From assembly GCA_947561395.2 (NCBI GenBank), contig OX387185.1, positions 21,705,866 through 21,769,865 on the forward strand: DNA of 64,000 bases, written 5' to 3'. The notes beneath the pieces were generated by a model. It did not search any database, had not been told where the DNA came from, and saw only the letters and a program-made list of their open reading frames with translations. Below, piece by piece: positions 36,338-64,000 of this stretch. Position 1 is the first letter of the stretch; each line of letters begins with the position of its first letter. Both the position numbers and the translations under genes were made by a program. Origin of the DNA: Buxus sempervirens. Its lineage: Eukaryota; Streptophyta; Magnoliopsida; Buxales; Buxaceae.

Positions 36338-36582
36338 AACCGCATACACAGTACGGTTTCCACACAACCGTCACTCTAAGTGCGGTTTCTATGCAAATTT
36401 AACTAAACCGCACATACAGGATAGTTCAATTCAGTTACGCTCGTCATGATTGCTGTCGACGTGGCTCAACGGCCGAAGCTTCGCGAAGCCACGTGGCAGC
36501 TCACGCAACAAGCATGGATATCAACCGTGCTGTGTGTGCGGTTGAGACCAAAATTATAAAAACCGTATACTCAGTGCGGTTG
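36338..36582. repeat. E2 21-bp palindromes, LTR cluster
   Basis: Units at 36338-36358, 36366-36387 (22 bp), 36406-36426 (right arm mutated here, intact in the other LTR), 36523-36543 and 36562-36582. Each begins AACCG and ends CGGTT, often extended to TGCGGTT. The central bases differ between units. Confidence 0.88.
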
Positions 36583-36694
36583 GCATCTTTTTTGATTGTT
36601 TTTGAATGTTTGACATATATCAAGGCTCAAATAAGACTTTTAAAGTTCATTTTGAGTATTCTCTTATATAGAGGTGCAATTTGGGGTGTCTACA

Positions 36695-36709
36695 ACTGCC
36701 CCCTCTTCG
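36695..36709 (-). promoter_or_regulatory. E2 polypurine tract
   Basis: On the element strand, GCGAAGAGGGGGCAGT abuts the LTR start TGTAGACACC. It is nearly identical in form to the E1 tract. Confidence 0.75.
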
Positions 36710-37038
36710 CTGGAATTGGAATCAATTAACAGCGGAGAGCAACAAAGACCCGCAAATTGCGCTTCTCAAGATCATTTCTATTCGATCATGAGCTGCAAGA
36801 ATTCCAACATGGTTTTTGAAAAAGAATTTGTTTAGAGGATCTGATGAAAAGTCCCTTACTTTAAGGGGCAAATCCTCTTCTCGCGTCTCACCGAGCACTC
36901 GTGGCTATGGAGTGAGATTTGAGCAAATTTTTAAAGCAAAAGTTGATAGTGTGGTGCTTCTTGCAATTCATGACTATCCTGGACATAGATCTTTTGAAAG
37001 AGATTGGAAAAAGTTTTGAAAATTCATTTTTGGGTGCC

Positions 37039-37159
37039 AACCGTACTGAACGTGCGGTTTTTAGCAATTTTGATTTCAACTGCTCTGTATGTGCGGTTTT
37101 GGACAATATTATACCAACCGTTCTGTATGTGCGGTTTTCTAGGTTTCATATAAACGAGA
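37039..37159 (+). promoter_or_regulatory. Putative gene A promoter: three palindromes plus TATA-like box
   Basis: Three 21-bp units of the E2 palindrome (37039-37059, 37078-37098 with a degenerate left arm, 37116-37136) end about 12 bp before CATATAAACG (37149-37158), a TATA-like box on the plus strand. A C/T-rich leader typical of plant 5' UTRs follows (37160-37523). The arrangement repeats the LTR layout for the antisense gene. The promoter role is inferred. Confidence 0.6.
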
Positions 37160-37179
37160 CCGCGACCGCGGCTGGCTTC

Positions 37180-38517: not shown

Positions 38518-40835
38518 ATGGCCCGTACAAGACGTGCTTCCCGGGGTCCCGCAGATGAGCCTTTATCTTCGAGGGTTCGGAGGGACCCGGCCGATGTGGC
38601 TTCTTCTTCTAGCGCCAAGCCGGACCCTGATCCTTCTTCTCCCAGCAGTCTGGAGGCTTCAGATTCTGATTCTGGGGCGTCTGGGGGGTCGCAGGAGTCG
38701 ATCCCAGAGGTATTCTTTTTCCTTTTCAAAAATCTGGCCTTTCTTTCACCACATTCAACTTAAACCCCTTTTTATTTGCCTTTCTAGCCTGCTGCCGAGG
38801 TTCGAGGTCGTAGGGGAGCTCGCCGCAGAGAGAGGGCAGGAGCCCGGGTGACTCGTGTTGCCATTCCTGCAGAGATAGCGGATCAGATCCGGGACACCTC
38901 TCTCCTCCATGATTTGACGACGCATCCTTCGGCGGGCATCAGGGCAGACATTCCTCTTTCTTATCCATCTTCCCATTTCCGCGGGAGCTGGGCCCTTTTT
39001 GCTGATATCGTAGCTGCTTGTTCGACTCCTCTGCACCGAGAGATGGGCCGCTTTGGATTTGGCCCTTTCATCACCATCACCGGCGTTCGTCAGGATCGGC
39101 CTTTGATCCTGGCTTTGATGGAGCGCTTTTTCCCAGAGACCCTGAGCTTCCATCTGCCTGATGTGGAGATTGGTATTTGCCCATCCGACTTCGCTCTCAT
39201 TACTGGGATCAGGATGACTGGAGATGTCATCACTGAGATGGATCGGCCGGCAGATTCAGAGATTGCCGAGCTGTTGGGATATGATGAGATGCCAGTGGGG
39301 GCATGGGACCGGAGCAGGATCACCTGCATTTCCCGGACATGGTTGAGGGAGACATTCCTGGAGGAGGGATACAGTACCCTGGCCGCGAAGCATCCTAGTT
39401 TCCCAGTGGCCTTTCGGTTTCTTTTTCTTTTGATGATGGGGTCATGCTTCTGCTTGGAGGATACTACCTCAATCAGTCCCCATTTTCTGAGTCTTCTTTG
39501 GGATCTGCACCGAGCGAGGGAGTATGCTTGGGGCTAGCTTGTCTATGGCACCTTGCTAGCGGGCCTACGACGAGTGGTTTCTGGCCTATCCTCTCCCAGA
39601 GGGGCTGGAGTGGGTTGCAGGTTTTTCTGGCCCTTTTTGCAGGTATAAATCCTTTTCCTCTTCTTTTCCTTTCTTTTCTTTTCTTTTTTTTTCTTCTTTT
39701 TTTTTCCTTTTTTCTTTGCTTATCTTTTTTTTCTTCTCTTTTCTTTTTCAGTTCTTTGCTCGGGCTTACGTGGTCCACTTTCGCCCCACCTCCACATTGC
39801 TTGAGGGGACATTCCCCTTGGCCTGCCGGTGGAATCGGATTAGGCGCGACTCAGAGAAGAGTCGCCCTAGGTCGGCCAGGGCGCACCTGGACAGGACCTT
39901 CAGGAGAGAGGTAAGCAATTTCTTCTTTTCTTTCTTTCTTTTCTTTTTCTCCTTTTTGTAAGAATCTGACATTCTCCTCTGTTTATCCTCAGCTATCTGT
40001 TCCCCGTCTTGACAGCCTGCACGATGAGTTGGCTTTTCAGCCTTTCATGGATGACGCTTTTGCTTTGGATCAGTGGCGCCAGAGGTACCCATTCTTCATT
40101 GGGCAGTTGGGTAGGATATGGTACCTCGGCGAGCGCTTCTTCTTCCAGCATACTGGCGAGCTCCGGATCCCAGTGGCTCCTCCAGCTACAGCACCCTTCA
40201 CCCCTCCTGGTCCATTCGACCCTGCCCATTTTGGCGATTGGGAGGGAGGAGATGGCCTTTTAGTCGATGGTGACTATGATACCTGGTTCGGGCAGGTCTC
40301 AGTGGGTTGTCTTATGCAACCCATGCCCGTTCGAGGTGGAGTTACTGAGATCGGGGGGGGGGGGGTGGTGGTCAGCATGTATGACACCACGGTACAACAA
40401 ATTTCATTCCCTTGTGCAGTCCTTTTAGTCTTCTTTTCTTGTTTAAAGCTTGACTGATATCTTTTTTCTTCTTATCTCATTTCAGGAGGCACAGCTAGAG
40501 GAGGTCCGGGCTAGATATGCAGATCTGGAGCGCTAGCTAGCTGAGAGGGATGCTGCCATAGCCGAGAGCGACGTCATCATCACTGGGCAGGCCGCTCTTA
40601 TTGCCGACTTGCGGGCCTAGTTGGCCAGTGCTCAGGGCTAGGCGGGGCCTTCAGGAGCTCAGGTTAGTCTTTTTCAGTTTCTGTATTTTTTCTTTATCTT
40701 TTCTGCTTCTGATTTATCCTTCTTTGTCTTCCAGGAGGATGTGGCAGTTTCACCATCCAGTTCTCGTACTCTATCCTTTTCCTTAGGAGCTGCAGAGATC
40801 CCAGAGAGAGAGACTGAGGTGGCGGCCGAGGCTAC

Positions 40836-43183
40836 TGTAACGCCCCGAACCCGGGTCAGTCCAAACCGGCACCTGACCCGAACCCGGTTCGCTACTGTAA
40901 CAACCCGAATTTAGTTCAACAACCAAATCCGAGGTGTTACTGGCCCATATCAATTACAACATCAATAACATACCAGACCAAAGAAAGTAAATCCAATCCA
41001 TATATTAAACCATCAGAGTTGCGGAAACAAGTATGTGCGGAAGTGTCGATTAAAATCATCAAACAAGCATGAAGCTTGACCATCAATCAATAGTATCAAA
41101 GTCTGGTAGAATGAACTGGTTACTAACTCTCTCTTGTCTCTCTCATACATCAAATCCAATTAATGATAATAAACCAATTAAAAATGCTAAGTCTATAACA
41201 TCAATCCACCTCAGATAAGATCGGGATAATAGTAATCCTCTGGAGAATACTCAGCTATCTCTCCCTGGAAGTCTAAGAGATCCCCCTCTAGCGTATCAGC
41301 TGAAAAATATGGAATAACAGTAGGGTGAGATACGAATATCCCAGTAGGTAACACATGCATGATTAAACAGTTAATATACGGAAAGTAGCAGTTCATGCAC
41401 GAATAAGTCACATCGATTAATCAGGCTCGTATAATCATTCGTATCATTCGTAAATACAAAACAATATACTAAACAGCTCTAGAGATGAATTCCAGCAAGT
41501 TTAATATGAAAATACCATAGTCAAATCAGTAACATAATTCATACATTGCCAGGATGTACTAAACAGTCACATCCAACCAATATCCCAAACACATGCCTCC
41601 CGCATGTACCACAATAATAACAAGTTTTATGATTTCAGGGTCATTGTAGGACTCACAAAGTTAGATAAACCTTTTGAGATGATTCTCAACCAATTGCTAT
41701 ACCACCGTGCGACTTAGGAGCGATGCTACTAATGATACTCAAGCCCCATGCAGCGCAGCTTAGACAAGAGCCGTAGTCACCGACTTATTGCACACGTACC
41801 CATCAAAGTTGGCATGTACCACCAGCATGCAGCACCAGAATCAATACATGGAGGTGGTTGCTTATCCACATGTACAGGGAATCACCAGCGGCTCACCGGG
41901 GTGTCCCTCCAGACATAGGACCTTCCCAGACAAACTAACTTGCAAAGGAAGCGCGTCGCATATAGGAGTAACTCAACTCAAATGACATATCCCTCAGCTA
42001 TCTAGCTACGACTATGGATCCGCAACCAGCTATGCCCACTAGACTCCAAAACTTCCCTAAAGTGTCATATTCTATAAGGGTTGGTGCCTAGCGGCATATA
42101 ATGGTTATATCTGTACATTTACTTCAATATTTGTTCATCTGAATTCAGTATTCTCTTTAGAAAGTATTCTGATTTATAATGTCATTTAGAGGTATTTAGA
42201 TAGTCAAATGGTAGTTAGGCTTTTCCAAAATCACGTTTCTCATTTAACTTCAAAACTTGGCAACTATTGTCCTAAATATCTCCCTAATTTGTTTTTCTGT
42301 AAAACAGGGGTTTAGGTAGTTTATTTTGGTCTTAAAGCACCTTAATTAATCATTAAAATTGTCTAAAAATAGTTTAGAATTGAATTAGGTTCGAAATTAT
42401 GAAAAATTGGAAATTCTGTTGAGAGCGCCTAGGATCGCTCAGGATCGCCCTGGCGGTCCCAGGTCAGCGGTCGTGTATTTTCGAGCGCCCGCGGTCCGTC
42501 TTCTCGCGGTCTACGGCGCCCTAATTTTATTTAACCAGCGCCGAAGATCGCCGACGAGCGCCGAGCACAGTCGAGGTCGGCGGTCGTGCGAAATCGAGCA
42601 GAAATAGTTCTAAATCACGATTTTTCTCGTCTAAACTCATTCTAGTGTATTTCTAACATGCTTAGCTAACTAAATACAACATTACATATCATAGAAACAT
42701 GCATTTGCGATTAACCAAGGAAAAATCCAATTTCAAAACCAAAACGGTGTCACCTACCTCGTATACGCGTTTCTCCTCTTCTCTTCTGAACAGCAAACCC
42801 CCAAACCTCTCCTCAGTTGCAAGGCAAGGCTCTGAGCAAGTTCCTTTGGTCTTCCCCCTTCCTTCTCTTTCTCCTCTTCTCGGTCGTTTCAACTCTCGTT
42901 GTTTGCGGCTGAATAATACGAGCGAGAATACGATTAGGTTATTTAATACATATATATACTCCCTGATCCCATGCATCTCCCATGCAAACTCTCCCATACA
43001 CCTCGCCCAATTAAAATACGTACCTCGATATCTCAAGATCGGACGGTCAGATCTGCGTCTAATTCTGGATCTTCACTAAACTGATCACCCCCTACAAGAA
43101 TAAAATATTCCCATCAATCATAACCCTCAGTAATATTATTTACTAATTTAATTTATTATTTAAGTAAAATTCGGGGTTTTACA
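40836..43183 (-). repeat. Tekay 3' LTR with 60-bp extra end
   Basis: The right end GGGGTTTTACA (43183) is followed by a polypurine tract on the element strand (43184-43194). The left end has two candidate termini, TGTAACGCCCCG at 40836 and TGTAACAACCCG at 40896, each preceded by GCTAC. The 60 bp between them look like an added or duplicated end. GC-rich inverted motifs such as GAGCG...CGCTC and GATCGCC..GGCGGTC fill 42420-42600. The conserved LTR block lies at 41300-41360. Confidence 0.85.
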
Positions 43184-46100
43184 TCCTCCCCTCCTAAAAG
43201 AAAAATTTCGTCCTCGAAATTTACCTTGTGGTTCTGGAAATAAGTTGGGATACTTTCTCTGCATTTCCGATTCCAATTCCCATGTAGCTTCCTCAGTCGT
43301 GTGGTTTTGCCAAAGTACTTTCACAAGTGGTATTACTTTAGTACGAAGAACCTGTTCCTTCCTGTCCAAAATCTCAACTGGATGCTCCTCGTAAGTCAAG
43401 TCCCCCCGCACTACTATCGGTTCATGCTGAATGATATGAGTAGGGTCGTGCACGTACTTCCTCAACATAGAAACATGGAATACGTCATGAACTCTTTCCA
43501 ATTGTGTAGGTAAAGCCAATCTGTATGCTAATGGTCCCACTGTACCCTTAATCTCAAATGGACCTATATATCTTGAAGCCAATTTGCCTTTCTTTCCAAA
43601 CCTCTTGATTCCACGAGATGGTGAAATCTTCAGAAATACCCAATCTTCAAAATGCAAGTCTCTTCTTCTGGTATCTGCATAACTCTTTTGACGACTCTGG
43701 GCTGTAAGCATGTTTCGCCTAATCTGATTCACCTTCTCAATGCTATCTTGTACAATCTGGGGCCCAATGAGTTGTCTTTCCAACTTCCACCCAGCACACT
43801 GGGGATCTACACGGTCTTCCATAAAGTGCCTCGAATGGTGCCATCTGAATACTCGCCTGATAGCTGTTATTATAGGCAAACTCCACCAATGGTAGGTGCT
43901 GATTCCAACTGCCTCCCCAATCCATAACACAGCATCTCAACATGTCTTCCAAAGTCTGAATGGTACGCTCAGACTGTCCATCTGTCTGAGGATGATAACT
44001 AGTGCTGAAATTAAGCTTAGTCCCCAAAGCTGCCTGAAATGCAAGCCAAAAACGTGCTGTGAATCGTGCATCTCTGTCAGACACTATAGAAACTGGCACT
44101 CCATGAAGTCTCACTATCTCCCTGACATATAACTCAGCTAAAGACTTCAATGGCTGTGTAGTGCTCATAGGCAAGAAATGCGCAGACTTAGTCAGTCTAT
44201 CCACGACAACCCAAATAGCATCTTCCTTCCTTGCTGTCAGTGGTAATCCAGATACAAAATCCATAGTTACATGCTCCCACTTCCACTCTGGGATAGGAAG
44301 TGACTGAAGTAAACCAGGTGGTTTCCGATGTTCAGCTTTTACTTGCTGGCATATCAAACACTTTGCCACATACTCTGCAATCTCTCTCTTCATTCCTGAC
44401 CACCAATAGATTTCTTTCAAGTTCTTGTACATTTTCGTACTTCCTGGGTGAACTGCATACTTCGATCTATGACCCTCTGATAATATTTTCTCCTTAATTT
44501 CTTCATTAGCTGGAACACAAATACGACCTCTATATCTCAATAGCCCATCTCTATCTGCAAAATCTACAGCTCCCTCAGATCCTCTACTCATCATCTCCCT
44601 AGTCTGGATCAACTGTGGGTCAATCAGTTGTTTCTCCCGAATCAACTGAACCAAATCTGGTTCAATCTGAACACGAGCAACTCGAATTACTCCCTCCTGT
44701 GGCATGCTAAACTCTCCCTGCCAATCTCTGACTGAAACAATCAATCTACACTGGCTCATCATGGAAACTGCTAAAGTAGCTATTTGACCTTCAACTGAGC
44801 TTTTTCTACTCAAAGCATCCGCCACTACATTTGCCTTACCAGGGTGGTATTGCAAAGTAAACTTGAAGTCCTTTAGCAAATCCATCCACCTTCGCTGCCT
44901 CATATTCAAGTCTTTCTGTGAAAACAGATATCTCAAGCTCTTATGATCAGAAAAGATCTCAAACTCTACTCCATAAAGGTAATGCCTCCATAGCTTCAAT
45001 GCAAAGACTATAGCTGCAAGCTCCAAATCGTGGGTAGGGTAGTTCTTCTCATGCGGCCTCAACAATCTCGAAGCATACGCTATAACTCTACCCTGCTGCA
45101 TCAATACACATCCCAAGCCTATCCTAGAAGCATCACAATACACTGCAAATGCCTCATCCATGGATGGCACAATCAACACTGGTGCAGTAGTCAATCTCTG
45201 CTTCAATTCCTGAAAACTCTGCTCACATTTTTCATCCCATTGAAACTTCACTGCTTTCTTGGTTAGATTAGATAACGGTGCAGCTATACGCGAAAATCCT
45301 GCAATGAATCTCCTATAGTAACCTGCCATACCAAGGAAACTCCTGACCTCTGTCACTGTAGTAAGCCTAGGCCATTCTGCCACTGCCTTAACCTTCTCAG
45401 GGTCCACAGATATACCCTCTCCTGAGATAATATGACCTAAGAAAGAAATTTGCCTTAGCCAAAACTGACATTTACTAAATTTCCCATACAACTTGTGGTC
45501 TCTCAAAGTGCACAATACTAACTTCAAATGCCCTTCATGTGCTTCTCGGGTCTTAGAATATACTAGGATGTCATCAATGAACACCACTACAAAACTGTCC
45601 AAGTATGCATGAAAAATTCTGTTCATGAGGTCCATGAAAACAGCTGGGGCATTGGTCAACCCAAAAGGCATAACCAAGAACTCATAATGCCCATAGCGTG
45701 TACGAAAAGCTGTCTTCTCTATGTCCTCCTCTGCTACTCTCACCTGATGATATCCTGACCTCAAGTCTATCTTTGAGAACCATGATGCTCCTCCTAACTG
45801 GTCAAATAGGTCATCAATCCTAGGCAACGGATACTTGTTCTTCACTGTAACTTCATTCAGTTGCCTATAATCAATACACATCCTCATGCTTCCATCCTTC
45901 TTCTGGACAAATAGAACTGGAGCGCCCCACGGAGACATACTGGGTCTAATGAAACCTTTTTCCTGGAGCTCATCCAACTGTTGCTTAAGTTCCTCCTGTT
46001 CTGGTTTCGCAAGCCTATAGGGTGGTTTCGAAACTGGAGCCGTACCAGGCATCAACTGTATTCTGAACTCTACTCCTCTAGCAGGTGGTAATCCAGGTAA

Positions 46101-46550
46101 ATCCTCTGGAAACACATCCGCAAACTCCTGTACAACGGGCACATCGGAGATGACAAGGGTGTCACTCCTAAGCTCCTCTGCTATCACAGATGCTACCAGA
46201 CCAATCCGTGACTTCAACCCCTCACATTTGAAACAGTGAGTGGTCTGATCTGGCCCTCTAACTATCACGGTACCCGCATAACAGTCCAATGTCACATGGT
46301 GTCTACATAGCCAATCCATCCCCAATATCACATCAAAACCTCCAATGTCTAAGGCAATCAAATCACCAGACAACTCTAATCTACCCAATCTAATCATACA
46401 GTCTCTATACATATGCTCCACTCGAGTAGACTCTCCCAAAGGTGTGTGCACAGACAAAACAACATCCAATTCAGTGGGTGACAAACCAATCTGTTGTGCA
46501 CAAGCAGGCGATATAAAAGAATGGGAAGCACCAGAATCAAACAGAACACA
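43160..46550 (-). pseudogene. pol: Tekay pol: protease, RT, RNase H, integrase, chromodomain
   Basis: The frame opens at the deletion junction. Protease [10 protein letters not shown] lies near 46530 and GMDWLCRH near 46310. RT shows [21 protein letters not shown] and [11 protein letters not shown] (catalytic DD). RNase H shows [15 protein letters not shown]. The integrase zinc region runs from [11 protein letters not shown] to [11 protein letters not shown], and its core shows [16 protein letters not shown] and a glutamate before [11 protein letters not shown] one-base loss near 43785 shifts the frame. The C-terminal part (to 43160) continues with GPFEI, VFHVSMLRKY and a chromodomain-like WQNHTTEEATWELE. 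Gag is absent. Confidence 0.92.
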
Positions 46551-47320
46551 TTCTGTTGAGAGCGCCTAGGATCGCTCAGGATCGCCCTGGCGGTCCCAGG
46601 TCAGCGGTCATGTATTTTCGAGCGCCCGCGGTCCGTCTTCTCGCGGTCTACGGCGCCCTAATTTTATTTAACCAGCGCCGAAGATCGCCGACGAGCGCCG
46701 AGCACAGTCGAGGTCCGCGGTCGTGCGAAATCGAGCAGAAATAGTTCTAAATCACGATTTTTCTCGTCTAAACTCATTCTAGTGTATTTCTAACATGCTT
46801 AGCTAACTAAATACAACATTACATATCATAGAAACATGCATTTGCGATTAACCAAGGAAAAATCCAATTTCAAAACCAAAACGGTGTCACCTACCTCGTA
46901 TACGCGTTTCTCCTCTTCTCTTCTGAACAGCAAACCCCCAAACCTCTCCTCAGTTGCAAGGCAAGGCTCTGAGCAAGTTCCCTTGGTCTTCCCCCTTCCT
47001 TCTCTTTCTCCTCTTCTCGGTCGTTTCAACTCTCGTCGTTTGCGGCTGAATAATACGAGCGAGAATACGATTAGGTTATTTAATACATATATATACTCCC
47101 TGATCCCATGCATCTCCCATGCAAACTCTCCCATACACCTCGCCCAATTAAAATACGTACCTCGATATCTCAAGATCGGACGGTCAGATCTGCGTCTAAT
47201 TCTGGATCTTCACTAAACTGATCACCCCCTACAAGAATAAAATATTCCCATCAATCATAACCCTCAGTAATATTATTTACTAATTTAATTTATTATTTAA
47301 GTAAAATTCGGGGTTTTACA
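46550..47320 (-). repeat. Tekay 5' LTR remnant
   Basis: 771 bp matching 42413-43183 without indels. On the element strand these are the first 771 bp of the LTR. It then jumps into protease coding sequence at 46550. Confidence 0.93.
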
Positions 47321-47819
47321 GCTACTTCTGCTGCTGCAGTTCCTGAGTCATTTGAGATGCCAGAGGCTGTGCCTGTATCTGAGACTGCTCCTGCATCTGA
47401 GCCAGAGACCGCTCCTGAGACAGCGGAGGGTGACTCAGAGTTTCCTGTAGTTCCTGAGGCGGCCGAGCCCGTGAGAGAGGAGGATATGCCAGGTGTAGCT
47501 GAGCCCGAGGTGGCAGAGGTGTGTGATGTAGCGGATCCCACAGATGCCTCTCCTCCTGTTGAGGATTCCCGAGTTCTGGAGCTGGTTCCTTTGGCGACGG
47601 ATACTTCAGTCTCCTGCTTTATGGACCTGTCCCGGGATGATCCAGTTCCAATTCCTACCTCTTCTATTGATCCTGCGCCTCCTGCAGACCCAGTGCCTCC
47701 TGCTAGTCTTTCGACTCCTGCTGAGCCGCCTTCTCTTGCTAGCCAGCGCTTCTCAGATCATTTCTTCATCCAACAGCGACGGCGAGGTAGAGGTGAGGGG
47801 GATTGACCTGTAGAAGATA

Positions 47820-48031: not shown

Positions 48032-48149
48032 AACCGTATATACAGGGCGGTTATCCAAGAACCGTGCTTATCCCGTGGTTTTTAAACTTTGCGGGAATGC
48101 AACCGCACATTGAGTGCGGTTCAGGCATAACCGTTCTGTGTATGCGGTT
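48032..48149. repeat. E2 21-bp palindromes upstream of gene B
   Basis: Four units, all 21 bp: 48032-48052, 48060-48080, 48101-48121 and 48129-48149. The third has perfect seven-base arms (AACCGCA/TGCGGTT). The cluster ends 131 bp before the gene B start codon. Confidence 0.88.
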
Positions 48150-48205: not shown

Positions 48206-48279
48206 ATTGCTTAGGTCAGAAACCCCATTTTCGGTGATTTTCTCTCTCCTAGTTGCCTTTAATCCACTTCTGCCCATTA

Positions 48280-49932: not shown

Positions 49933-50349
49933 CCCCTTTTATTATTTTTTTTCTTTTTTACACTTTTGTACAAAGAGAAACTCCACTAGTGGAAAGATAG
50001 AGAATACAAAATAGGTTTTTATAATATTGGCCTCAGAACTCTCATATGCTTGTAGAAACTGACAGTTTTAATGAAAAGTCACTGATTTCTCATCATCGGC
50101 CAAAATATAATTTTCATTTTTGTGTGTTTTTGTTGTAAATTGGTCCATAATGCTTTAATCCCATATAGTTGGATGAATTGAAATAAGTTGGGCAAAAAGG
50201 GTACTTTAACCAATGAGGAGGAAGCCATTCTGTCCCCCTTGGAATCTTTAGACTCATCCCCAAGTTTCCTTCCCACATCTAGGGGGATGCCACAGCCTCC
50301 TGGTTCAGTCCTGCGCAGAAAATTGGCTTAACTCAATTCTGCTGCCCAA

Positions 50350-50437
50350 AACCGTGCATTCAGAACGGTTTAGCCAAAACCGTCTTCAACATGCGGTTGC
50401 ATAGCCCTTTTGCCAAAACCGTAGTTAACGGGCGGTT
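50350..50437. repeat. E2 21-bp palindromes between gene B and pol
   Basis: Units at 50350-50370, 50378-50398 and 50417-50437, plus a half unit (GTGCGGTT) near 50459. No nearby start codon or TATA box was seen on either strand, so this cluster is not explained by a known promoter. Confidence 0.85.
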
Positions 50438-52360: not shown

Positions 52361-53479
52361 CTAATTCTTAGACCTTGGCATATAGCTAAAAGAAATTCGA
52401 GTAAATTTGGTACTTATTTCTTCCAAATACTGGTGATATGGGATCAATTTATGATCTTTGGTTTTCCATTCCCCAGTTGTTTGGAAGATGATAAGACTCG
52501 AATCCCCGTATACGTCAAGTTCTTGGACATCATGATCTAGAGCAGCTTGTAATCCAATTATACAGGCTTCATACTCTGCTATGTTGTTCGTGCACTGAAA
52601 CCTCAATTTCACTGCGATTGGGATATGTGAACCATCTGGCTTCACTAATACTGCGCCGATCCCATTTCCATTCATATTTGCAGCCCCGTCAAAGAACATC
52701 TGCCAGGAGTCTTCAATTTCTTCCTCTTCAGCAAATAAGATAGCCTCATCAGGGAAATTCGTCTTAAGGGGCTGATAATCTGGTAATGGGTGCTCAGCTA
52801 GATGATCAGCAATTGCTTGACCTTTAATTGCTTTCTGAGTGACATATGTCAGGTCGAATTCTGAAAGCAAAAGCTGCCATTTTGCTGTTCTACCAGTTAA
52901 AGCTGGCTTTTCAAACAGATATTTTAACGGATCCATCCTTGAAATCAGAAAAGTCGAATAGCTTAAGAAATAGTGCCTAAGCCTCTGAGTTGCCCAGACC
53001 AAAGCGCAACAAGTCTTTTCCAGAGGCGAATATCTCGTCTCATAATCTGTGAACTTCTTGCTCAAATAGTAGATAGCCTTTTCTTTTTTGCCTGTTTCAT
53101 CATGCTGCCCCAATACACATCCCATTGATGTTTCTAAAACCGATAGATACAGAATCAATGGTTTCCCTGGAGTTGGTGGTACTAGAACAGGTGGATTTAA
53201 CAGATAATCTTTTATTTTGTCGAATGCTTGTTGGCAATCCTCATTCCATATAGTTGGGTTATTCTTCCTTAGAAGCTTAAAGATCGGCTCGCAAATAGCA
53301 GTGAGCTGTGCTATGAACTGGCTAATATACTGAATTCTTCCCAGAAAACCCTTAACTTCATTTTCAGTCTTAGGAGGTGGCATCTCAATGATTGCTTTTG
53401 CTTTAGACGGATCTACCTCAATCCCTCTTCTGCTTACAATGAATCCAATAATTTCCCTGATGTGGCTCCAAAAACACAC
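52361..53479 (-). pseudogene. pol: E2 RT connection, RNase H and archaeal-type RNase H
   Basis: The segment starts after a frameshift near 53457, where the preceding frame ends in GKLLDSL. It carries the end of RT (GFIVSRRGIEVDPSKAKAI), the first RNase H region (ILYLSVLETSMGCVLGQ, YSPLEKTC) and a second RNase H (MFFDGAANMNGNGIGAVL, NNIAEYEACI, DVYGDSSLI). The second domain is the archaeal-type RNase H known from the Tat lineage. It ends MPRSKN then TAG, where the next frame reads FANALATLASM, so CAG to TAG is likely. Confidence 0.9.
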
Positions 53480-54603
53480 TTTGCTGGATTAAGCCTTAAG
53501 CTGTATTTCCTTAGACGGTCAAATACCCTCTTTAGATTGATCAAGTGGTCTTCCTCTTCACATGATTTGGCGATCATATCATCCACATAGACCTCCATTT
53601 CTTTGTGGATCATATCATGGAAAAGGGCTGTCATGGCTCGCTGATATGTTGCCCCGGCATTCTTTAATCCAAAAGGCATGACTGTGTAGTGAAAGGTTCC
53701 CCAAGACGTGATAAAAGCGGTTTTCTCTTGATCCTCCTTTGCCATTTTGATTTGGTTATATCCGGAAAAGCCATCCATAAAAGAGAACAAGCTGTGCACC
53801 GCCGTATTATCAACCAAGATGTCGATGTGTGGCAAAGGAAAATCATCCTTTGGGCTCGCCTTGTTCAAGTCTCTATAATCTACACACATCCTGACTTTTC
53901 CATCCTTCTTTGGAACCGGGACTATATTAGCTAGCCAATCAGGGTATGTGGACACTGCCAAAAACCCGGCTTGAAACTGTTTCACCACTTCATCCTTGAC
54001 TTTTAAAGTCCACTCTGGTTTCAACCTTCTTAATTTCTGCTTAATGGGCTTTACTCCTGGCAGGATCGGCAGCCTGTGTACAACCATGTCTGTATCCAAC
54101 CCTGGCATATCCCGATAAGACCATGCGAACACGTCCTTGTAATCGGCCAAGAATTGGGACATTTCCTTCTGCTGCATATCAGACAAGCATGCACTAATCT
54201 TTACAATTTTTGGGTCCTCTTCGGTTCCCAGGTTTATGGAAATGGTTTCTTCAATATTAGGTTGAATACCCTTTTCGTGACGTTCCAATTGATATGATAT
54301 TTCTCTTGGAAGGTCATCGTCTTCGGCCTCGATCTCCTCTTCGATCCCCATTAGGTCAAAGTCGAGCTCGAGGTCGAAGTCATATTCAACTTGCTCTAAT
54401 TCAGTCTGTATATATGGTTCATAAGTAGTCTGGACCATTTTGGAAGCTTTAGATTTTCTAGAAAAAGTTGAAAAATCTTTTTGGGTTTTTTGAGAACCTT
54501 CTAAAGAGGCTTTTCCTAAAGATGAAGGTTCATTAAAACTTTCAGGAAAAGGGCAATCCACTAATGGAGTATTTTTTTTTTGGAGACCGCAGCTGATTGC
54601 CAA
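53434..54603 (-). pseudogene. pol: E2 reverse transcriptase
   Basis: It shows GLDTDMVVHRLPI, VRMCVDYRDLNKASPKDDFPLP, FMDGFSGYNQI, TVMPFGLKNAGATYQRAM and the catalytic EVYVDDMIAKS. It is out of frame with gag-protease; the two frames overlap at a run of ten A on the element strand (T run at 54572-54581). The 3' end is broken by a one-base change near 53457. Confidence 0.9.
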
Positions 54604-57600
54604 CCATATGCGGCCTCAAATGTCAAAGGGATCTCTTCCCAATTTTTTAGTGCAAAGCCTTCTGGAGCAGGTGGTATAGTGCAAACCTGCTCCTCCTCAA
54701 GCTCTTGATCTGATACCATCATTACCGGATTTGGAAAACTGTCCTTTTCTGCTTCGGGGCTGAGTTCAGAGGTGACTTTATCTGGGATCTTGATTGAGGT
54801 CCAGTCAATAAAAGGAACCTCTTTTTCTGCTTTCTCTCTTCCTTCATCCTCTGTCATTGCAAAGAATGCCCCAGCCTCTTCTGTGAAGTCCTGCTGCTCT
54901 TGTGGTAGCGGCTCAGGCTCATCCATGGCTTTAGGCGCCAAAGTGGATAAAAGGGGGATAAAAGGTTGAAGGGTTGAGGTGAAGGGTTTTCTGAAAGGAT
55001 TATCATTAAAGTATGGAGGTTGGGAGGAATCTGAAGGAGGAGACAATTGAATGGTATGAGAGGGCTTCGGAAAAGTTTCCCTTAAATGAGGGAATTTTCC
55101 TTGATTCTTCTCCCTTTCGTTACCATTTTCTTTCTGTGGTCCCCTCTTCCATCTTCTTATTTTCATCCCTAGTCCTGCTCGTGGGACCAGCCTCTGTGCC
55201 TCTATGGGCTCCAACCTTCCTTGTAGATTAATTCCCAACCCCTTCCCTGGGTGGAAATTGCAATCTCTTAAAACCTTTTCCACCATCCTGTTGGCGCATG
55301 TCAACTTCTCATTCTTTTTTAGACACCCCCCAGGTATGAAGTTGACTGTTTCAAATTGAAAAGAATGAAACGCAATTTTGTCTGCCGTTAATTCTACATT
55401 AATGAAAGGTACGTTCGGTGGTATAACGGGAGGGACTAGACTCTCGGCTAGGACCGTTATCACCCTCTGGCCTCTTATATATTTTACTCTTTGATGAAGG
55501 GTGGATGGTATAGCCCTAGCTGAGTGGATCCATGGCCTTTCCAGAAGTAGATTGAAGGTAGCAGGAATATCTATCACTTCGAATGTGATATTAATGATAT
55601 TCGGTCCGATGGTAATCGGCAATTCAATCTCCCCTAGGGAGTGTGTTTTGGAGCTATCAAAAGCTCTCACTATCCTTCCGTTTTGCTTTATTTTAGATTG
55701 GTCCAGACCAAGCCTCACGAATGTTACCAAGGGACAGACGTTTAAGGCTGACCCATTGTCAATTAGGACCCGGGCTATCATGCTACCCTTACAAAGCACA
55801 GTGATGTGCAAAGGGTCCACATGATAACATCCGCCAGGGCTTATCTCGCTTTCAGAAAAGCGTATTACATTGTGAGATAAGATCTGGCCGATCATCATGC
55901 CGAGCTGGTCTGGTTCAATTGTCTTAGGCACATGAGCACTCTGGAGTACCTTTATTAATGAGTCCCTATGCTTTTCTGTATTAAGCAATAATCCCAGTAT
56001 TGATATCTGGGTAGGGACCTTGATCAATTGGTCGACAATATTGAATTCACTCTTTTTCAGTATTTTTAGGAGGTCTGTTGCCTCATCATTTACGACCTGG
56101 GGGGTGTCCTCCCCTATCTTAGCCTTCCCCTTCTGACCTTGCTCTGCCTCCTTCTTTTCTTGTTCTTTTCCTTCCACACATCTCCTTGATCTTGTCATGA
56201 GATTTACTTCCTCCTGACTCTGATTCCTGGCCACTGGAATAGTGGTCGTATAACCCTCGCTGTAGTTCCAAGGTACAGTAGCTTCTAAATAGGAGGGTTT
56301 AGGAACGTTAAATACCAAGGGTTGGAGATGAGCCCTTGGTGCAGGAGTTGATGTGAGAATGGGGTTAGAAGAAGGCACCTCAATAACCAGAGGCGAGGAT
56401 TGCCTGGGTTCCTTGGGTTGAGAGGATTTCAAGGTCTGAGAAGAAACGGAGGTAATTGATGCTGTGGTGGGATCATAATTAATGACCAAAGGTGGTTTGG
56501 ATGATGAAGTAGGTAGAGGAGCAACAGCCTGGTTGCAATTAATGATGAGAGGGGGTTTGGTTACATTAAGCTGGGCCATGAGAGAAGCGGCCCGGTTTAA
56601 AGAGGCATTAATGTCCTCTGCAGTCTTGCCATTTCCATTATTTCCAGAAATGACATTGATTTGTTCCCCTATCTCTTCTTGGTCAAAATAGACCTTAACG
56701 GACGTCCCTATTGGCGCAATTAACTGCGAGGGATCAAACGTCCTAGGTCCAGAAGAGACTGTCCCTACAAAATTGGAAGGACCAGCCCCATTATGCTGGG
56801 GCAGAGGATTCTGACCAATGTCAGTCCTGGCGGGAGAGGGTGCAGCCGTGTTAAACAACAAGGTTCCCTGATCGATCAAATCCTGGATAGCATGTTTTAA
56901 CGGCCAACACCTGTCTGTAGGGTGTCCTAGGGCACCCATATGGTATTCACAGGTGGTTGAGGGATCGAAATTCTTTCCCTTCGAAGCGTTTGGATTTGGT
57001 TCTTTCAGAGTAACATACCCTGCGTTTAACAGAGTTGGCAATAGCTGGCATGGAGTCACAGGGAGAGGGGAAAGGACCCTATTCCTTCTGGACGCCATCC
57101 AAGCATCTCTCTCCTCTTTCGAGAATACCCTTTTTTGGTTGGGCATTGCTGCCTGAGGAACATTAATATTGAGAGGGTTTTGATAGGTCGATTGCGGCTG
57201 CACTGGGATGGATGGAGGTGCAGAAATATTGACTTGGAGTGGTTTTTTGGGTGGTTGGGGTTGTACCATATTTACTTCCCCTTCTTTCTTCCCTCCGTTC
57301 CTTCTTGCCCCATTTTTCTGCTTCTGGGCCGAAGGATTGGAAGTGGGCTCCTGCTGACGAGCCGAGGCAGAAAGGTCATAGATTCGCCCGGATCTGATTC
57401 CATCTTCAATCCGATCTGCGACCTGTACTAGGGCAGCAAAACTGGTGGTAATCTGACCCACCAAGTGATTGTAAAATGGCTGCCCCAGTGTGCCAATAAA
57501 AGTGGTTACCATCTCTGGCTCCATCATGGGAGGCCTGACTTGAGAGGCGACTTCCCTCCACCTTTTGGCATACTGCCTGACTGTCTCATCTCTTCCTTTG

Positions 57601-58343
57601 CTCATCTTCATCATATCGTACCTATCTGGCACGATGTCTGCATTGAAACGATACTGAGCAAGGAAAGCATCAGCTAGGTCCTTCCACCTTCTGATTCTGC
57701 CATGGTCCACGGTTGCGAACCATCTCAAAGCTGCCCCAGTCAGGCTTCTTTGGAATAGCTGGATCAAAATGCCGTCATCCTGGCCAAATTGGCACAACGC
57801 CCCACAGTAGAGCTTCAGATGGCTCATTGGGCAGCCAGTGCCGTCATATTTCTCGAAATCCGGGCACTTAAATTTGGCCGGTAGGCATGCGTCGGGGTAC
57901 ATGCAGAGATCCTTAAAGTTGGTACCACCCAACGTGTTGATCCCTCTTACTTCTTTCAGCTCTTCTTGGATAGACTCCAGCTTTTCCAAGAATTTCCTCT
58001 CCACTTCTACCCTCAGTCTTTCCTTTTCTTTTTCCTTCTCCCTCTCACATTCAGATTCCTCCTCTCGGATCAAGATAGGCTCGGGGGTTAGTTGGTGAAG
58101 TTCAGGTTGAGGTGGGATAGGTTGGACTGGTGGTGGAAGGTCAGTCTGGGGTTGAGCTGGTGGTGCATTATGGGATGATGAAGCCTGATGAACCTGAGCC
58201 TGCGCCTGCTACGCCTGCATCTGAGCCTGAGCGGCTTGGTTGGCCAGCAAATTCTCCAGTAGTTTTGTCATCCCTGCCACTTGCTCTTGCAGTTGAGCGA
58301 AGGCCTCAGCAGAAACAGTGGACTGCTCTTCAATTGGATTCAT
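54561..58343 (-). pseudogene. gag-pro: E2 Gag-protease polyprotein
   Basis: The open frame from 58073 has 1170 residues. The natural start is likely the ATG at 58343, in the same frame but separated by a TAG at 58209-58211 (residue 45, a likely lost CAG within a Gln/Ala-rich stretch). Gag shows KFKCPDFEKYDGTGCP, FQRSLTGAALRWF, YAKRWREVASQVRPPM and RIEDGIRSGR, then the zinc-knuckle-like CEYHMGALGHPTDRC. The aspartic protease has VLIDNGSALNV. A G-patch-like segment follows (NFHPGKGLGINLQG). It is homologous to E1 Gag over the core and knuckle. The next pol frame overlaps at the A10 run. Confidence 0.9.
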
Positions 58344-58420: not shown

Positions 58421-58596
58421 AAAGACAAAGGAAAAATATTAGTATCCCATTAAATCAATTTTACACACCTATGCATGCATGTAGGCTTGGTGAACAAGAG
58501 TTTGGGATTTTCCTTGTATTCATATTTTTTTGCCCTTTAGATTTATGGTTAAAATAACCTTATTAAAATGAGGTGATTGATACGAAAAAGATCAAA

Positions 58597-59340
58597 CCAC
58601 AAAAATTCTGTTGGAGTATTCTAGGGCCTCCAACATGTCCCACAAAAGATAATGTGGCTATAGTAAAGGCCTATAGTCAAATCAAGCATTGGAATTGCAC
58701 AAGCTTCCAAGGGCTTATGACTTGGTTGGTACGAAAAAGACCCACCAATATTGGAAAATTCTAGGGCTTCCAACATATCCCACAAAAAATGAGATGTCCA
58801 AAGTAAAAAAAACTTTAGACAAACTCGAGACTTGGATTACGCAAGCTTCCAAGGGCTTATGCTTTGGAATTAAGGCTACCATAGCCTCTTGAAATTACGC
58901 AGGCTTTCAAGGGCCTATGAATTTCTAAATTAAGGCTTTAGAAGGCCTATGGTGCTTTTGAGAAAAATTTGGAATTTCAGGCCTCCAGGGTCCTATGAGT
59001 TTCTAAATTCAGGCTTTAGAAGGCCTATGAAGATTTTGAAAAATTCTGGAATTTCAGGCTTCCAGGAGTCCTATGAGTTTCTAAATTCAGGCTTTAGAAG
59101 GCCTATGAAGGTTTTGAAAAATTCTTGAATTTCAGGCTTCCAGGAGTCCTATGAGCTTCTAAATTCAGGCTTTAGAAGGCCTATGAAGATTTTGAAAAAT
59201 TCTGGAATTTCAGGCTTCCAGGAGTCCTATGAGTTTCTAAATTCAGGCTTTAGAAGGCCTATGAAGATTTTGAAAAATTCTGGAATTTCAGGCTTCCAGG
59301 AATCCTATGAGTTGATTTTCTGAAATTCCAAGGCTTTCAG
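58597..59340. repeat. E2 78-bp tandem array upstream of gag
   Basis: Five clear units start at 58971, 59048, 59126, 59204 and 59282 (pitch 77-78 bp), built on GGAATTTCAGGCTTCCAGG and GGCTTTAGAAGGCCTATGA. Older, degenerate units extend left to about 58597 (TCTAGGGCCTCCAACAT type). The position matches the E1 70-bp array, but the sequences are unrelated. Confidence 0.88.
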
Positions 59341-61717
59341 ATGCCTCACATATTTTGATTTCCCCCCCCCAGGTGTTTTTGAGTTAAAAAGAGACTCAAT
59401 TTGCCCTTAAGGTGGTGATTTATTTGAAATTTTCTTTCATTGGATTTTTAAATGATTATTTGCTTGGAATTCAAAGGTTCCCAAGTGACCCCCAGATTGC
59501 TCTTTGGAAGAAATCTCAAAAGCTTGGATACTTTATGGTTAAAGATTTCTTAAAGATTGATTTTTGATTGGAATTCGCCTTATCTTAAAAGAGTTGAGCT
59601 TCCTTTCATGAATTATATTACACTTTAAGTTTAAACTCATTATGATTTCCAAGTTCAATTTTTGAGATTGAAGTGTGATTAAGTGGGTTATTTGAACCAA
59701 TTCTCTTTTAATCCTTTACTTCACTTAAGATGGGTTAAGTGGTCAAATTGGACAAAAAGAGCCCAATGTGGACTTAACCCCCAGATTGAGGTGCTTGACC
59801 TGTTTTTTGGTTTGAGCCAACTTTTATTTTATCATTTTCACCCTTGAGTTTAGTTGATTTATTCAATTTAGGTGAAAATGTTAAAAATGACTTTGATTTC
59901 TTGATTTGGGTGTATTTGGAATGGTTTATATGCCATTTATCTCATTTAGCACACCTGCCCACTTGCTTATATAACTTAGGGATGAAAGGACCCAGAAATG
60001 TTTAATTAGCAAGGCTGGAATAGGATTTCGGCTTAAAACCGTGCAATCAGGACGGTTTGGTCCAAACCGTATGACACATGCGGTTGCATCTAAAATGCAG
60101 ACAACCGCATACTCAGGACGGTTTTAAGCCAAAAGATAGATTTGCGATTTGTTTCCTTTTCCAATTGGTTTTATTAGCTTGGTTAAATGCCCAAACACAC
60201 TGTTCACCATTGGGTGGCTTCCAGACTGCCCCAAATTGGGCATTTGACACATCAAATGGCATTAAAAGCCCTCTTAAACCATGAATTTCATGAGGTTGCA
60301 TGGGGAGACCACAAATATGCACAAACAGATCTCTTACAATAAAAGAAATATGTTACAATACAAATTGGCCTTCAAGGGCATGAATCAAAATAAAATTACA
60401 CTTTTAGCCTCCTTGGGCTTGAGAATGAGAGTTTTTAAACAAAAAGGAAAATAAGAGGCCCTTTGCACCAGCAGCTCTTGGATGGCCTTCACACACAAAT
60501 TCCCTACAAGAAAGAGGATTAGCCATATTCATACAAAGGAGGGCGTAGGCTCCCTCCTAAAAATGGACACCTAATGCATGGAATTTGGGACTTTTGGGTG
60601 CTTCCTATGGGCATTTGGGTAGAATGACACTTAAGAAGAGTAAAAACTCTCTCTAAGGGCTACACCAATCCTAGGCTAACAGCAATTTTCTGGGAAAAAC
60701 AAAATCCCATCAAATGGACACCATGATCTTGATTCCTACAAAGTATAGAGGCCATCATAAGGAATAAACTGAAAATACCTTGTTACCTCATGTTTACCTT
60801 CAAAATGGTGTCCATATCATACCTCGGGTTACCTGAGCCATGCAAGACGGCCTTCCCTCAATTACAAACCCTTTCCCCATTGTATTTGGTTTATTTTGGC
60901 CAAAAGGGTGTTTCTCCACCTTCGCGTAGGGGTCTTGGGTTTTGGCTTATTGGCAACTTAGAGCTCAAGCCTAGTGTATGACCAGAATTCTAGATCCACC
61001 ATGTCATCACATCATTGGCTCAAAGTCTCTAAGGTGAATGTTTTCACTTTCGCTTTCCGAAGTAACGACCTTGGTGCGCCAAGCTACACACATTCTTGTT
61101 CAACTTCCTATAGGTGATAGGTAGGCTGTGTAAAAAAATAAAAAAGTGCTCAAGTGCATTTGAAAAAGAGGGTCACATTCAACACAACGTCCCACCCTTG
61201 CCACTCTTTTTTCGTAGCCATGCAAGCGCAATCACATTCACGAAGGCATGATATGGAAATCATATTTGAAGCAAACAATCATGAATAAAACAAAGTAAAT
61301 AAAAAAAATACCTAGCATGCTCATACTAAACATGTATTCACACAAGCATCATGCAAGCATGTTATCATGTTGTACAAAAAAGCAAATAAATCATGGTGAG
61401 CATGCTTGATATGAAGTAAACATCTCTCAAAAATTCTGATTTCATGCTCATCACATTAAACTTCTAATCAAAGCATGCTTATCATAACAAAAATGGCAAC
61501 CTAGCATGGTAAGACTATCTAGGTCCACAAACATGGTTTTGAATATAATCAAAGCATACACACATCACATGGCCTATTGTCTAAGGTCTCAGGTATTCTA
61601 AAAACAAAAGCACTCAGATCAAAAATGTTTATCACAAATGGCAAAACAGCAAACAATTCATGGAAATCAATCAATCATGCTCAAGCAATCAAAACATGGC
61701 TCAATTCCACTAGAACT
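59341..61717 (-). other. E2 5' leader, non-coding, with palindromes at 60037-60123
   Basis: This is the leader between PBS and the tandem array. It contains three 21-bp palindromes at 60037-60057, 60065-60085 and 60103-60123, and otherwise no coding frame worth reporting. Unlike classical Ogre elements, no ORF1 is seen upstream of gag. Confidence 0.7.
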
Positions 61718-61734
61718 CCCCAGCAGAGTCGCCA
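61718..61734 (-). promoter_or_regulatory. E2 primer binding site, Tat/Ogre type
   Basis: The element strand reads TGGCGACTCTGCTGGGG, two bases inside the 5' LTR, the same class as the E1 PBS. Confidence 0.87.
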
Positions 61735-61736
61735 GT

Positions 61737-64000
61737 TGTGAGACATGGATTTGTCATCTCGGATGACTACCGATATCGTCACGCGGGGATCGATAAAAGC
61801 TAAGAGTCGCCACCATCCATTTTAGGGTGTGAATGGACACCAAATGGTTTATGAAAGCCAAATAGAGGCAAAGTAGCTCTAATATATGAAAAATCCAGAG
61901 ATTGGGTAAGCGGAATTATTTATAAGCGGGTGAAGGTGTTAGGCACCCCCACTCATCCGTCTAATACGGTTGCCACATGCTTGCTTATGCCATAAATTGT
62001 TTGCTAACGTAATGGACAAAAAGGTGCTTATAACAAGCACAATGTGTGTGACCATTCCACATGAGAAGTCTAATGAGCTTAGACTCTCTTCGTGGATTCA
62101 TCACTCCTAAGACTTCATGAGTGAGTAGAAATCAGGGTAAAAACAAAGAAAATCAAGCTAAAGTAAATCTGGAGAAATTAAGTCAAAAGAGCTTGAAAGC
62201 TTCGATTAACCATAACTCACTCAATTTAAATCCAAATCCAATGAAACCAAAGCCATTTGAAAACTGGTATATAGTAGAGTATACAGTAAAAATTTCAGCT
62301 CAATCCGATTTAAAACGAGAGAGAAATCCACATCTGAAATCTGCTGTTTATAACTTGGAAAAAGCGTTAAGTAGGCATTTTCAAAATCCTATTCGTGGAG
62401 TTTGGCTCAATAAAAATTCATGAAAATTGGTATGGGGGAAGTGTGTAGTGCCATCTTTCCAAAGAAGAAAACCTCACACCAAACTCTATCCGGATGTGAC
62501 TTGTGTGCTCTCTTGAACAGGCCTAGAAGACCACAGATTAGCTCTGGACTATGCCAGCGAGCATCTCTGAGTCAATTGAGCACCCAAGGCACAAAACAGA
62601 TCAAAATCTGCTGAAACTAGTTGGAAATGAAAATAGACTTCTCAAGGAAAACTCAGAAACTAGAATTACTCAAAACGGATTAAAATTGAGCAAATAGTGC
62701 ACCATAAAAGCGGCAAGTTCAGCAATCTTGGCTGAACTGACTTACAGACTTTGAACAGATGGTGTCAAAAATTGGCTACACAAAAGTGGACGAAATTTTC
62801 CAGATAAGAAATAGGCATATCCATCTATCACATGTCTTTGGAATCACTCAAAAATTCATCCAGAGGATGAAGTTATAAGCATTCCAAGACAGGCCACAGA
62901 TCTGCCCTGTTTTGAAGATTTTTGGATAAAAAAACCAAAATCATAGCATGTGTGCATGTGGATTCGACCAAAACTCTTAAAAATCACCAAAAACCAACTC
63001 ATGAAGTTTTAAGATTCATTTTGAAGCCAATGGATTCAGATTTTCCGTATTGAACATGGAAATCCAAGATCTAGCTTCTTTGATGAAGAAAGGTGGAAAG
63101 TGTGTGAATATGTGAAAATTCACTCCCTAGGAGAAGGATGGAATCCTTTGCTACTGAGAGCAAGGATTCACATATTTCTCCATGAGCAAGTGCAAAACAT
63201 CAGAAAATAAACATCCATAGGTTTAAAATAACCACATAGCATGCTCTTCATCACTTGTAGGTTCTAAGCCTAGAGGATCCATCCCTACTTCTTTTTCCCA
63301 AGGCTCTCTCTTCACGTTTTACGGCTAGAGAGAATTCCCAGGTACTTTGGAAGAGGTCTGGGGCTACAAATCAACACAAAGTGGCCTTATACTACAGAAA
63401 GGTAGAAGATGAGAGAGAAATGTAAAGAGAGTGCTGGAAATATAAAGAGCTTTACCTTTGGTAGCTTGAATACTTGAGGCAGCAATCCAGCATAGTTTTC
63501 CCTCTTCTTGCAGAGCTTCAAAGCTTCAAATTATCAGCCATTTGCAAGAGGAGGACCCCTCTATTTATAGGCCAAATCAGGGGTAGAAGAGTCCCAAGGG
63601 TAGGCCTAAAAAGCCTTCTAGATTATTCCAATTCTCCTCCAAGGCTTGAATTGGAGTAATTCAGCAAGTTTCGGAGGGTGAAATAGGGAGTTCAAGTCCC
63701 TGAGAGGGAGGTAATATGCGGAAATAAGGCTCAGAGATCGAGCCATTTCACAAATCCCCGAAACAGCCAAAACCGCATACACAGTGCGGTTTCCACACAA
63801 CCGTCACTCTAAGTGCGGTTTCTATGCAAATTTAACTAAACCGCACATACAGGACGGTTCAATTCAGTTATGCTCGTCATGATTGCTATCGACGTGGCTC
63901 AACGGCCGAAGCTTCGCGAAGCCATGTGGCAGCTCACGCAACAAGCATGGATATCAACCGTGCTGTGTGTGCGGTTGCAACCGCACATATAGGGCGGTTG
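61737..64000 (-). repeat. E2 5' LTR, right copy, truncated by window end
   Basis: It aligns with the left LTR at a constant offset of 27433 with no indel seen until about 63976. There the left copy continues GAGACC while this copy continues into another 21-bp palindrome (63979-63999). About thirty substitutions were counted by eye before that point. The TATA box is at 63561-63569 and palindromes run from 63771. Confidence 0.93.

Follow-up and report, generated by a model that had tools for sequence, protein, structure and literature searches.

CCG-N11-CGG palindrome arrays at promoter positions of a Tat-like Ty3/gypsy retrotransposon of Buxus sempervirens: predicted sites of a dimeric DNA-binding factor

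Sireviruses (Ty1/copia) carry palindromic, high-copy RM boxes clustered upstream of the TATA motif of the long terminal repeat (LTR) and 5′ of an extra gene; the boxes are element-specific versions of a CG-rich signature, and a role in regulation has been suggested (PMC2829016). In VANDAL transposons, VANC proteins target a short motif clustered in the non-coding parts of one transposable element family; related families have differing motifs that evolve together, and co-evolution with the element-encoded protein has been proposed (PMC5735166, PMC10398659). In Retand elements, the long region separating pol from the 3′ LTR carries antisense genes whose function is unknown, and a DNA-binding regulatory role has been proposed for them (PMC11963269, PMC7264820); their antisense domain TRP28 (PF04195) is present in 97 percent of Retand clusters (PMC11963269). 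More generally, antisense genes of Tat-type elements are known, and their role is not (PMC7264820, PMC11963269). Among the extra domains of plant Gypsy elements, the plant mobile domain (PMD) is the commonest (PMC9289625), and the Arabidopsis PMD proteins MAIN and MAIL1 affect silencing of transposable elements and genes with the promoter motif 'DOWN', direct DNA binding being left open (PMC7156037). Here, we analyze 64,000 nucleotides of the Buxus sempervirens genome (contig OX387185.1, positions 21,705,866 to 21,769,865; hereafter, the window), whose right part is occupied by a minus-strand Ty3/gypsy retrotransposon, E2, with two antisense genes, A and B, and with arrays of the 21-bp palindrome AACCG-N11-CGGTT.

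In the window, the exact pattern AACCG-Nn-CGGTT occurs at 18 sites with n=11, at two with n=12, at one with n=16, and at none with any other n within 0-30. All N11 and N12 units fall inside E2, and positions 1-36337 hold no such site (n 0-30); the single N16 site (40864) lies within a nested element (40836-47320), itself without an AACCG N11 site. Single-arm counts predict 0.028 N11 pairs, and the maximum in 200 first-order Markov simulations is one; hence, an origin by chance or low complexity is rejected. Three further units are damaged, with one mismatch at 37078 and 48060 and two mismatches at 36404, giving 23 recognizable units, in agreement with the more than 20 copies reported by the first-pass annotation of this DNA. 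Nearly all units had been taken to be 21 bp long and one to be 22 bp; the 18 exact N11 units agree with this, and the 22-bp unit is a single one that recurs in both LTRs.

The units form clusters (coordinates without strand): in the 3′ LTR at 36338-36581 (units at 36338, 36366 (N12), 36404 (damaged), 36523, and 36561) and in the 5′ LTR at 63771-63999 (63771, 63799 (N12), 63839, 63956, and 63979); in the gene A promoter at 37039-37136 (37039, 37078 with its mismatch, and 37116); in the gene B promoter at 48032-48149 (48032, 48060 with its mismatch, 48101, and 48129; spacing 28/41/28); between gene B and the 3′ end of pol at 50350-50437 (50350, 50378, and 50417); and at 60037-60123. A cluster is also present in the region corresponding to the last one in R011 and R013, two stretches of the same genome with elements related to E2. 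Six clusters had been annotated, and their coordinates hold; those at 36338-36582 and 63771-63999 are one LTR stretch in its two copies and thus one array, leaving five independent places. The unit at 63979 is missing from the left LTR, as a 23-bp gap (63956-63999 versus 36523-36543); the unit at 36404 and its partner at 63839 differ at two bases; and the right-LTR array extends past the window, with an additional unit at 64017.

In E2, the LTR array precedes a sense-direction TATA motif (36131) by about 200 bp, and the LTR arrays of R011 and R013 are 158 bp upstream of the sense TATA motif. At three of the four antisense promoters examined (E2 gene A, the gene A place of R011, and R013 gene B), the array ends 11-14 bases before a TATA motif, which in E2 gene A follows the last unit by 12 bases; no canonical TATA motif follows the array of E2 gene B. 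The earlier placing of clusters, before the LTR TATA box and immediately 5′ of both antisense genes, is confirmed, and judging by these positions the arrays stand where promoter-proximal sites would be.

A search of the genome with the gene B protein yielded 5,905 first-look candidates, and the best 150, E2 among them, were scored; all of these are at least 91 percent identical, with internal stops in 20 of the 150. Upstream stretches were taken for 20 copies, chosen by gene B similarity regardless of the motif. The array is present at the same place in 20/20 promoters, with four exact units in 15, three in four, and two in one (E2 has three exact units), and the 28/41/28 grid fits in 21/21 promoters with E2 included. 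Pairwise diversity in the 20 promoters without E2 is 0.015 for the arms, 0.084 for the centres, 0.107 for the linkers, and 0.097 for the 5′ flank; with E2 it is 0.0165, 0.084, 0.106, and 0.101, respectively, and 0.035 for the 3′ flank. The arms are thus about one-seventh as diverse as the linkers (about one-sixth, for linkers and the 5′ flank, with E2 included), despite one CpG per arm. The prediction that arms are conserved better than centres, linkers, and the 5′ flank holds across these 20 other copies.

The centres had been described as variable, but they do not vary freely. In the 17 distinct exact units of the window they contain 11.0 bits of information, compared with a mean of 3.1 and a maximum of 4.1 in 100 composition-matched random sets, the observed set including LTR duplicates and shared ancestry. 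Centres of two further arm classes, introduced below, behave similarly: 8.8 bits versus 3.0 random for the ATCCG class (22 units), and 9.9 versus 5.7 for the E1 class (26 units). Pooled E2-like centres, in a hand-picked set, have the oriented consensus YAYAYWCAGKR, hence, the centres are not free. Within clusters, most units start 28 or 38-41 bp after the previous one, distances that differ by about one helical turn; the LTR clusters additionally show steps of 23, 117, and 119 bp. Units 28 bp apart form five independent pairs, of which one is in the LTR, two precede gene B, and the clusters at 50350 and 60037 have one each; these pairs make up 49-bp modules. Four of them were compared within E2, the LTR pair being excluded since its second unit is 22 bp long. 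Arm identity is 1.0, 1.0, 1.0, and 0.9, and centre identity is 0.58 and 0.42, while the 7-bp linker (0.31) and the flanks (0.33 and 0.24) show near random identity; as the arms served as the search key for modules, this comparison alone is no proof of constraint, a bias that the genome-wide counts and the comparison of the gene B promoters do not share.

Genome-wide counts cover 676.5 Mb in 247 contigs. AACCG-N11-CGGTT has 19,195 sites, versus 23,763 for N8-14 together, which leaves 4,568 jointly for the six neighbouring spacings (approximate, as a start with two gap lengths may count once) and supports the predicted enrichment of N=11 over other lengths. ATCCG-N11-CGGAT has 48,312 sites of 52,022 for N8-14; its reversed control has 292 and 3,089, respectively. 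GCCCG-N11-CGGGC, counted at N11 alone, has 17,547 sites (reversed control, 1,289), and the control arms TTCCG-N11-CGGAA have 1,315 (reversed control, 958); four outer-arm types were counted in all, with spacing controls for AACCG and ATCCG only. The N=11 spacing is locked in these two arm classes. Over these four types, the enrichment is tied to certain outer bases, not to CCG-N11-CGG as such. A simple-repeat artefact is rejected as the source of the N11 excess: among the first places listed, on contig C1, AACCGA-type repeats occur at other spacings and none at N11. Among the ATCCG sites listed, 44 of the 53 gaps of at most 120 bp are exactly 39 bp.

Among individual matches, AACCG-N11-CGGTT lies inside a larger inverted repeat in two stretches (L006, 4674-4774, and L009, 4987-5075), and in L006 more CCG-N11-CGG units continue at 28-bp steps. 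Viral contigs gave no matches for either of two paired patterns. The paired ATCCG pattern was met in 13 bacterial genome stretches (L052-L064), three of them in one actinobacterial assembly, perhaps by chance in GC-rich DNA.

Protein identity between R013 and E2 is 89 percent for integrase and reverse transcriptase (RT), 64 and 57 percent for the parts of gene B, and 49 percent for gene A. Save for one AACCG-type unit each, R011 and R013 lack the AACCG arrays of E2, and carry ATCCG-N11-CGGAT arrays at the corresponding places: in R013, in the LTR (11288-11405), in the 5′ untranslated region (UTR; 15020-15098), and directly before gene B (26774-26890); in R011, in both LTRs, in the 5′ UTR, and at 9612 and 9651 near the 3′ LTR (all CCG positions). 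The last two appear, by eye, to mark the gene A promoter place, the following DNA resembling the core promoter of E2 gene A. By listed positions, three copies on contig C1 share one arrangement (LTR, 5′ UTR, gene B, gene A, LTR); in the third, units are missing, and R013 alone was partly read and matched to genes. Thus, the same outer base is changed in both arms at several places, suggesting a changed reader; such a change across the arrays of a sister element would fit a co-evolving factor, and strengthens the VANC-like logic proposed in the first-pass annotation.

At synonymous sites, E2 and R013 differ to near saturation (pS 0.61-0.84, seven fragments), so the common CCG-N11-CGG ruler has outlived neutral sequence. 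The corresponding pN reaches 0.34 in gene A and 0.20 and 0.25 in the fragments of gene B, compared with 0.19 in gag and 0.05-0.07 in RT, RNase H, and integrase; by this measure, both antisense genes are constrained, yet faster than pol.

A third arm class is found in another LTR element of the window, E1 (1-11117, no strand assigned; gag frame 4342-6129), with (GC/GA)CCG-N11-CGG(GC/TC) units spaced by about 27-28 bp. Its LTR arrays, at 930-1133, 10331-10534, 10-110, and 9411-9510, have GC/GA outer arms and a period of about 28 bp. CCG-N11-CGG has 19 sites in E1, CCG-N6-CGG has 11, and each other spacing up to 25 at most five; the N6 sites all lie at about 6170-6770, in a separate 70-bp tandem array. 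The region 11118-34303, including a copia element, holds one CCG-N11-CGG site. The same class as in E1 is carried by R006, which encodes a gene B relative; 98 query proteins matched E1 in its gag frame only. Being common to E1, R006, and R011/R013, CCG-N11-CGG cannot have a single-family origin, which is rejected.

We see an even chance that the E2 promoters carry predicted sites for one dimeric DNA-binding factor, perhaps element-encoded, which would co-regulate the LTR and the two antisense genes. Each unit would comprise two inverted CCG half-sites at a fixed spacing, CCG-N11-CGG, with a neighbouring outer base that varies by family (E2, A; sister family, T; E1 class, C or A). A dimer is suggested by the constant distance between the inverted half-sites; it would bind the units and act on transcription, by activation or by VANC-like protection from silencing. 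With arrays standing upstream of the sense LTR promoter and again immediately 5′ of the antisense genes, a single factor could switch all of these in concert. It would be encoded by gene A or gene B, a source that we favour over a host factor such as an LBD dimer.

Gene A (38518-40835, plus strand) consists of exon-like pieces interrupted by the nested element, with PMD (PF10536) in 38788-39534 (E=5.1e-15); the open frame directly after the nested element (47321-47803, plus strand), with no Pfam match, is probably its later part. Gene B (48253-49929, plus strand) consists of the open frames 48253-49011, with DUF7745 (PF24924; 2.4e-21) and PMD (1.3e-12), and 49237-49929, without a Pfam match. 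These are the only extra genes found in E2 with a recognized domain. Protein neighbours number none for gene A, one for gene B alone, and 92 for the gene B profile, those named coming from Solanaceae genera. TRP28 is not matched in the scanned gene A/B pieces, the first gene A exon lying outside the scan; DUF1985 has no match in these pieces, nor is it among the 25 families listed, of 30 in total, that are matched by 34 members of the gene B family. A broader form of the dimeric-factor reading, which we put forward tentatively and below even chances, is that the antisense PMD-type proteins of giant Gypsy elements might be dimeric sequence-specific regulators, each family having a private address code made of the shared CCG-N11-CGG ruler and a swappable outer base, with the factor and all its sites changing together.

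Several observations weigh against an element-encoded dimer. Besides weak hits of single family members, the scanned gene A/B pieces match only PMD/DUF7745 in Pfam; among solved structures, the gene B profile has no match, and gene A has two, at E 0.11 and 0.42, taken as chance. E1 and R011 carry sites, yet gave no gene A/B match in the stretches examined, so that the factor would need to work in trans or else come from the host. The arms of the E1/R006 class are mixed (GC, GA, and some AA), and the arm switch is unclean, single AACCG-type units standing 39 bp beside the ATCCG 5′ UTR arrays of both R011 and R013; the comparison itself is limited to two families. Gag (pN 0.19) changes at about the rate of gene B, hence, the rates of genes A and B do not prove that specificity is changing. 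The reversed AACCG control is also high at N11 (1,691 of 6,746 for N8-14), although this is less than one-tenth of the true N11 count. Enrichment of N=11 had been expected only inside the E2 family; the enrichment stands and the restriction fails in part, as stretches with no similarity to E2 (L006-L010 and L014) carry AACCG-N11-CGGTT too, and isolated units are present in the ATCCG family's 5′ UTR. Conservation extends to the 3′ flank of the gene B array (0.034 in the 20 promoters without E2), which comprises the core promoter and leader and is less conserved than the arms. Finally, there is no evident promoter beside the 50350 cluster, nor beside the 5′ UTR cluster of R011/R013, and R013 has no site at the place of the 50350 cluster, though the flanking E2 regions align (E2 down to 50483 and from 50137).

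The strongest alternative, possible and in our view rather unlikely, is that the units bind a dimer of a host transcription factor, e.g., of the plant LBD/LOB type, and are exploited by the elements as an enhancer, with the arm classes corresponding to different host paralogues. In LTRs, cis boxes frequently correspond to binding sites of stress-related host factors (PMC2829016), LBD proteins reportedly tell palindromes apart via dimerization, by a molecular calipers mechanism (PMC10118128), and E1 carries arrays with no gene A/B match. At the same time, related elements in one genome differ in the outer bases at corresponding places, which a shared factor would not require, and the arrays also flank the element's own antisense genes.

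It is improbable that the arrays mainly reflect spread of the palindromic unit by tandem duplication and conversion, with no binding partner. In favour of this, similar modules recur (50348-50402 and 60035-60089, 83.6 percent identical in self-comparison), the LTRs differ by one 23-bp unit, and the ATCCG arrays are near-regular 39-bp repeats; against it stand the low arm diversity, about one-seventh of that of the linkers in promoters picked irrespective of the motif, and the preservation of the 28/41/28 grid. An element-encoded factor serving integration or chromatin tethering instead of transcription is similarly hard to credit: clusters do occur in the 5′ UTR and after pol, the latter with no evident promoter, but arrays adjoin TATA motifs at antisense promoters and lie upstream of the LTR TATA in both families. 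RNA hairpins that serve packaging, export, or splicing, in either the sense or the antisense RNA, are very improbable, since, although every unit can self-pair and the 5′ UTR and internal copies should lie in sense RNA, five-pair arms with 11-base loops look weak, and the LTR and antisense-gene arrays are upstream of TATA motifs in the direction served.

E2 is delimited by a 3′ LTR at 34304-36694 (minus strand, 2391 bp by self-comparison, with GTGGG on its left) and a 5′ LTR at 61737-64150 (minus strand, 2414 bp, with GTGGG directly after; the window ends at 64000), the target-site repeat GTGGG thus standing on both outer sides; divergence between the two LTRs is 0.014 (Kimura two-parameter distance, K2P). 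The gag-pol open frames (50978-58208, minus strand) match Retrotrans_gag, G-patch, RVT_1, RT_RNaseH, RVT_3, and integrase in Pfam, and the order gag, RT, RNase H, integrase is that of Ty3/gypsy Tat/Ogre elements. A dual RNase H, as described for Tat elements (PMC9289625), is seen in 52364-53488 (RT_RNaseH, 2.7e-26, and RVT_3, 3e-17). E2 can be read as a Ty3/gypsy element with Tat/Ogre-like features, its dual RNase H and PMD gene fitting what has been published on Tat-type and plant Gypsy elements (PMC9289625). The G-patch domain occupies residues 980-1016 of 1215 in the gag-containing frame (54564-58208, minus strand).

The element nested in gene A (40836-47320, no strand assigned) has GCTAC on both flanks, a Ty3/gypsy pol at 43743-46484, and internal repeats at 42413-43183 and 46550-47320, the stretch 40836-42412 preceding the left repeat. 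Tandem arrays are seen in the window at 6171-6614 (period of about 70 bp), 13388-14898 (22/44 bp), and 58900-59313 (78 bp). The copia element (17548-30716) has 1.2-kb LTRs and an extra frame (28065-29183) matching Transposase_32 (PF20167), and carries no such palindrome array.

Among described sites, those of fungal Gal4-type Zn2Cys6 proteins, CGG-N11-CCG, consist of two CGG triplets at an 11-bp spacing read by a dimer. The spacing in E2 is the same, and the triplets point the opposite way, CCG-N11-CGG. With the Arabidopsis proteins MAIN and MAIL1, the products of genes A and B share PMD.

Retand elements resemble E2 in having antisense genes between pol and the 3′ LTR, and tandem arrays are common in them (PMC11963269, PMC7264820). 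The Retand antisense frame encodes TRP28, whereas the scanned gene A/B pieces of E2 encode PMD/DUF7745, which places E2 outside Retand on this feature; its 2.4-kb LTRs also exceed the Retand range of 315-1,194 bp (PMC11963269). Palindrome arrays are not found in the available passages of the Retand descriptions (PMC11963269, PMC7264820).

Like Sireviruses, E2 has palindrome clusters both before the LTR TATA and on the 5′ side of an extra gene. The Sirevirus RM units are 10-20 bp long with a CGG-CCG core (Table 3 of PMC2829016), while the core in E2 is CCG-N11-CGG; Sireviruses are copia elements with a sense ENV-like gene, while E2 has the gypsy domain order and antisense PMD genes; and neither an 11-bp lock nor a coordinated multi-place arm switch is described in the available part of that paper (PMC2829016). 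The earlier statement that no system of this kind is known therefore needs qualification: promoter palindromes had already been described in Sireviruses, in another superfamily and with another geometry (PMC2829016). We found no report of such arrays in Gypsy elements in the literature searched, which lay mostly outside subscription papers and supplements. Promoter-linked repeated sites in transposable elements are thus already known, and E2 presents a new variant, the N11 geometry and the coordinated arm switch not having been found described.

VANDALs are Mutator-like elements. With them E2 and R011/R013 share clustered non-coding motifs that differ between related families. The VANC21 motif has nine bases in one orientation, while the E2 units are 21-bp palindromes; VANC has DUF1985/DUF287, not seen in the scanned gene A/B pieces; its binding has been measured, while the E2 units are predicted sites; and VANDALs are not LTR retrotransposons, VANA being called a transposase (PMC5735166, PMC10398659). 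With tens of thousands of natural site copies, three arm classes, and matched related elements, the role of the antisense genes becomes accessible to direct tests of binding and of promoter activity. If the factor is element-encoded, it would amount to self-regulation in LTR retrotransposons, by a control or anti-silencing system specific to the family; in the literature searched, such a logic was met only for VANDAL transposons. If the antisense PMD proteins are indeed the regulators, they would be the LTR-retrotransposon counterpart of VANC, which would explain why the elements keep their antisense genes.

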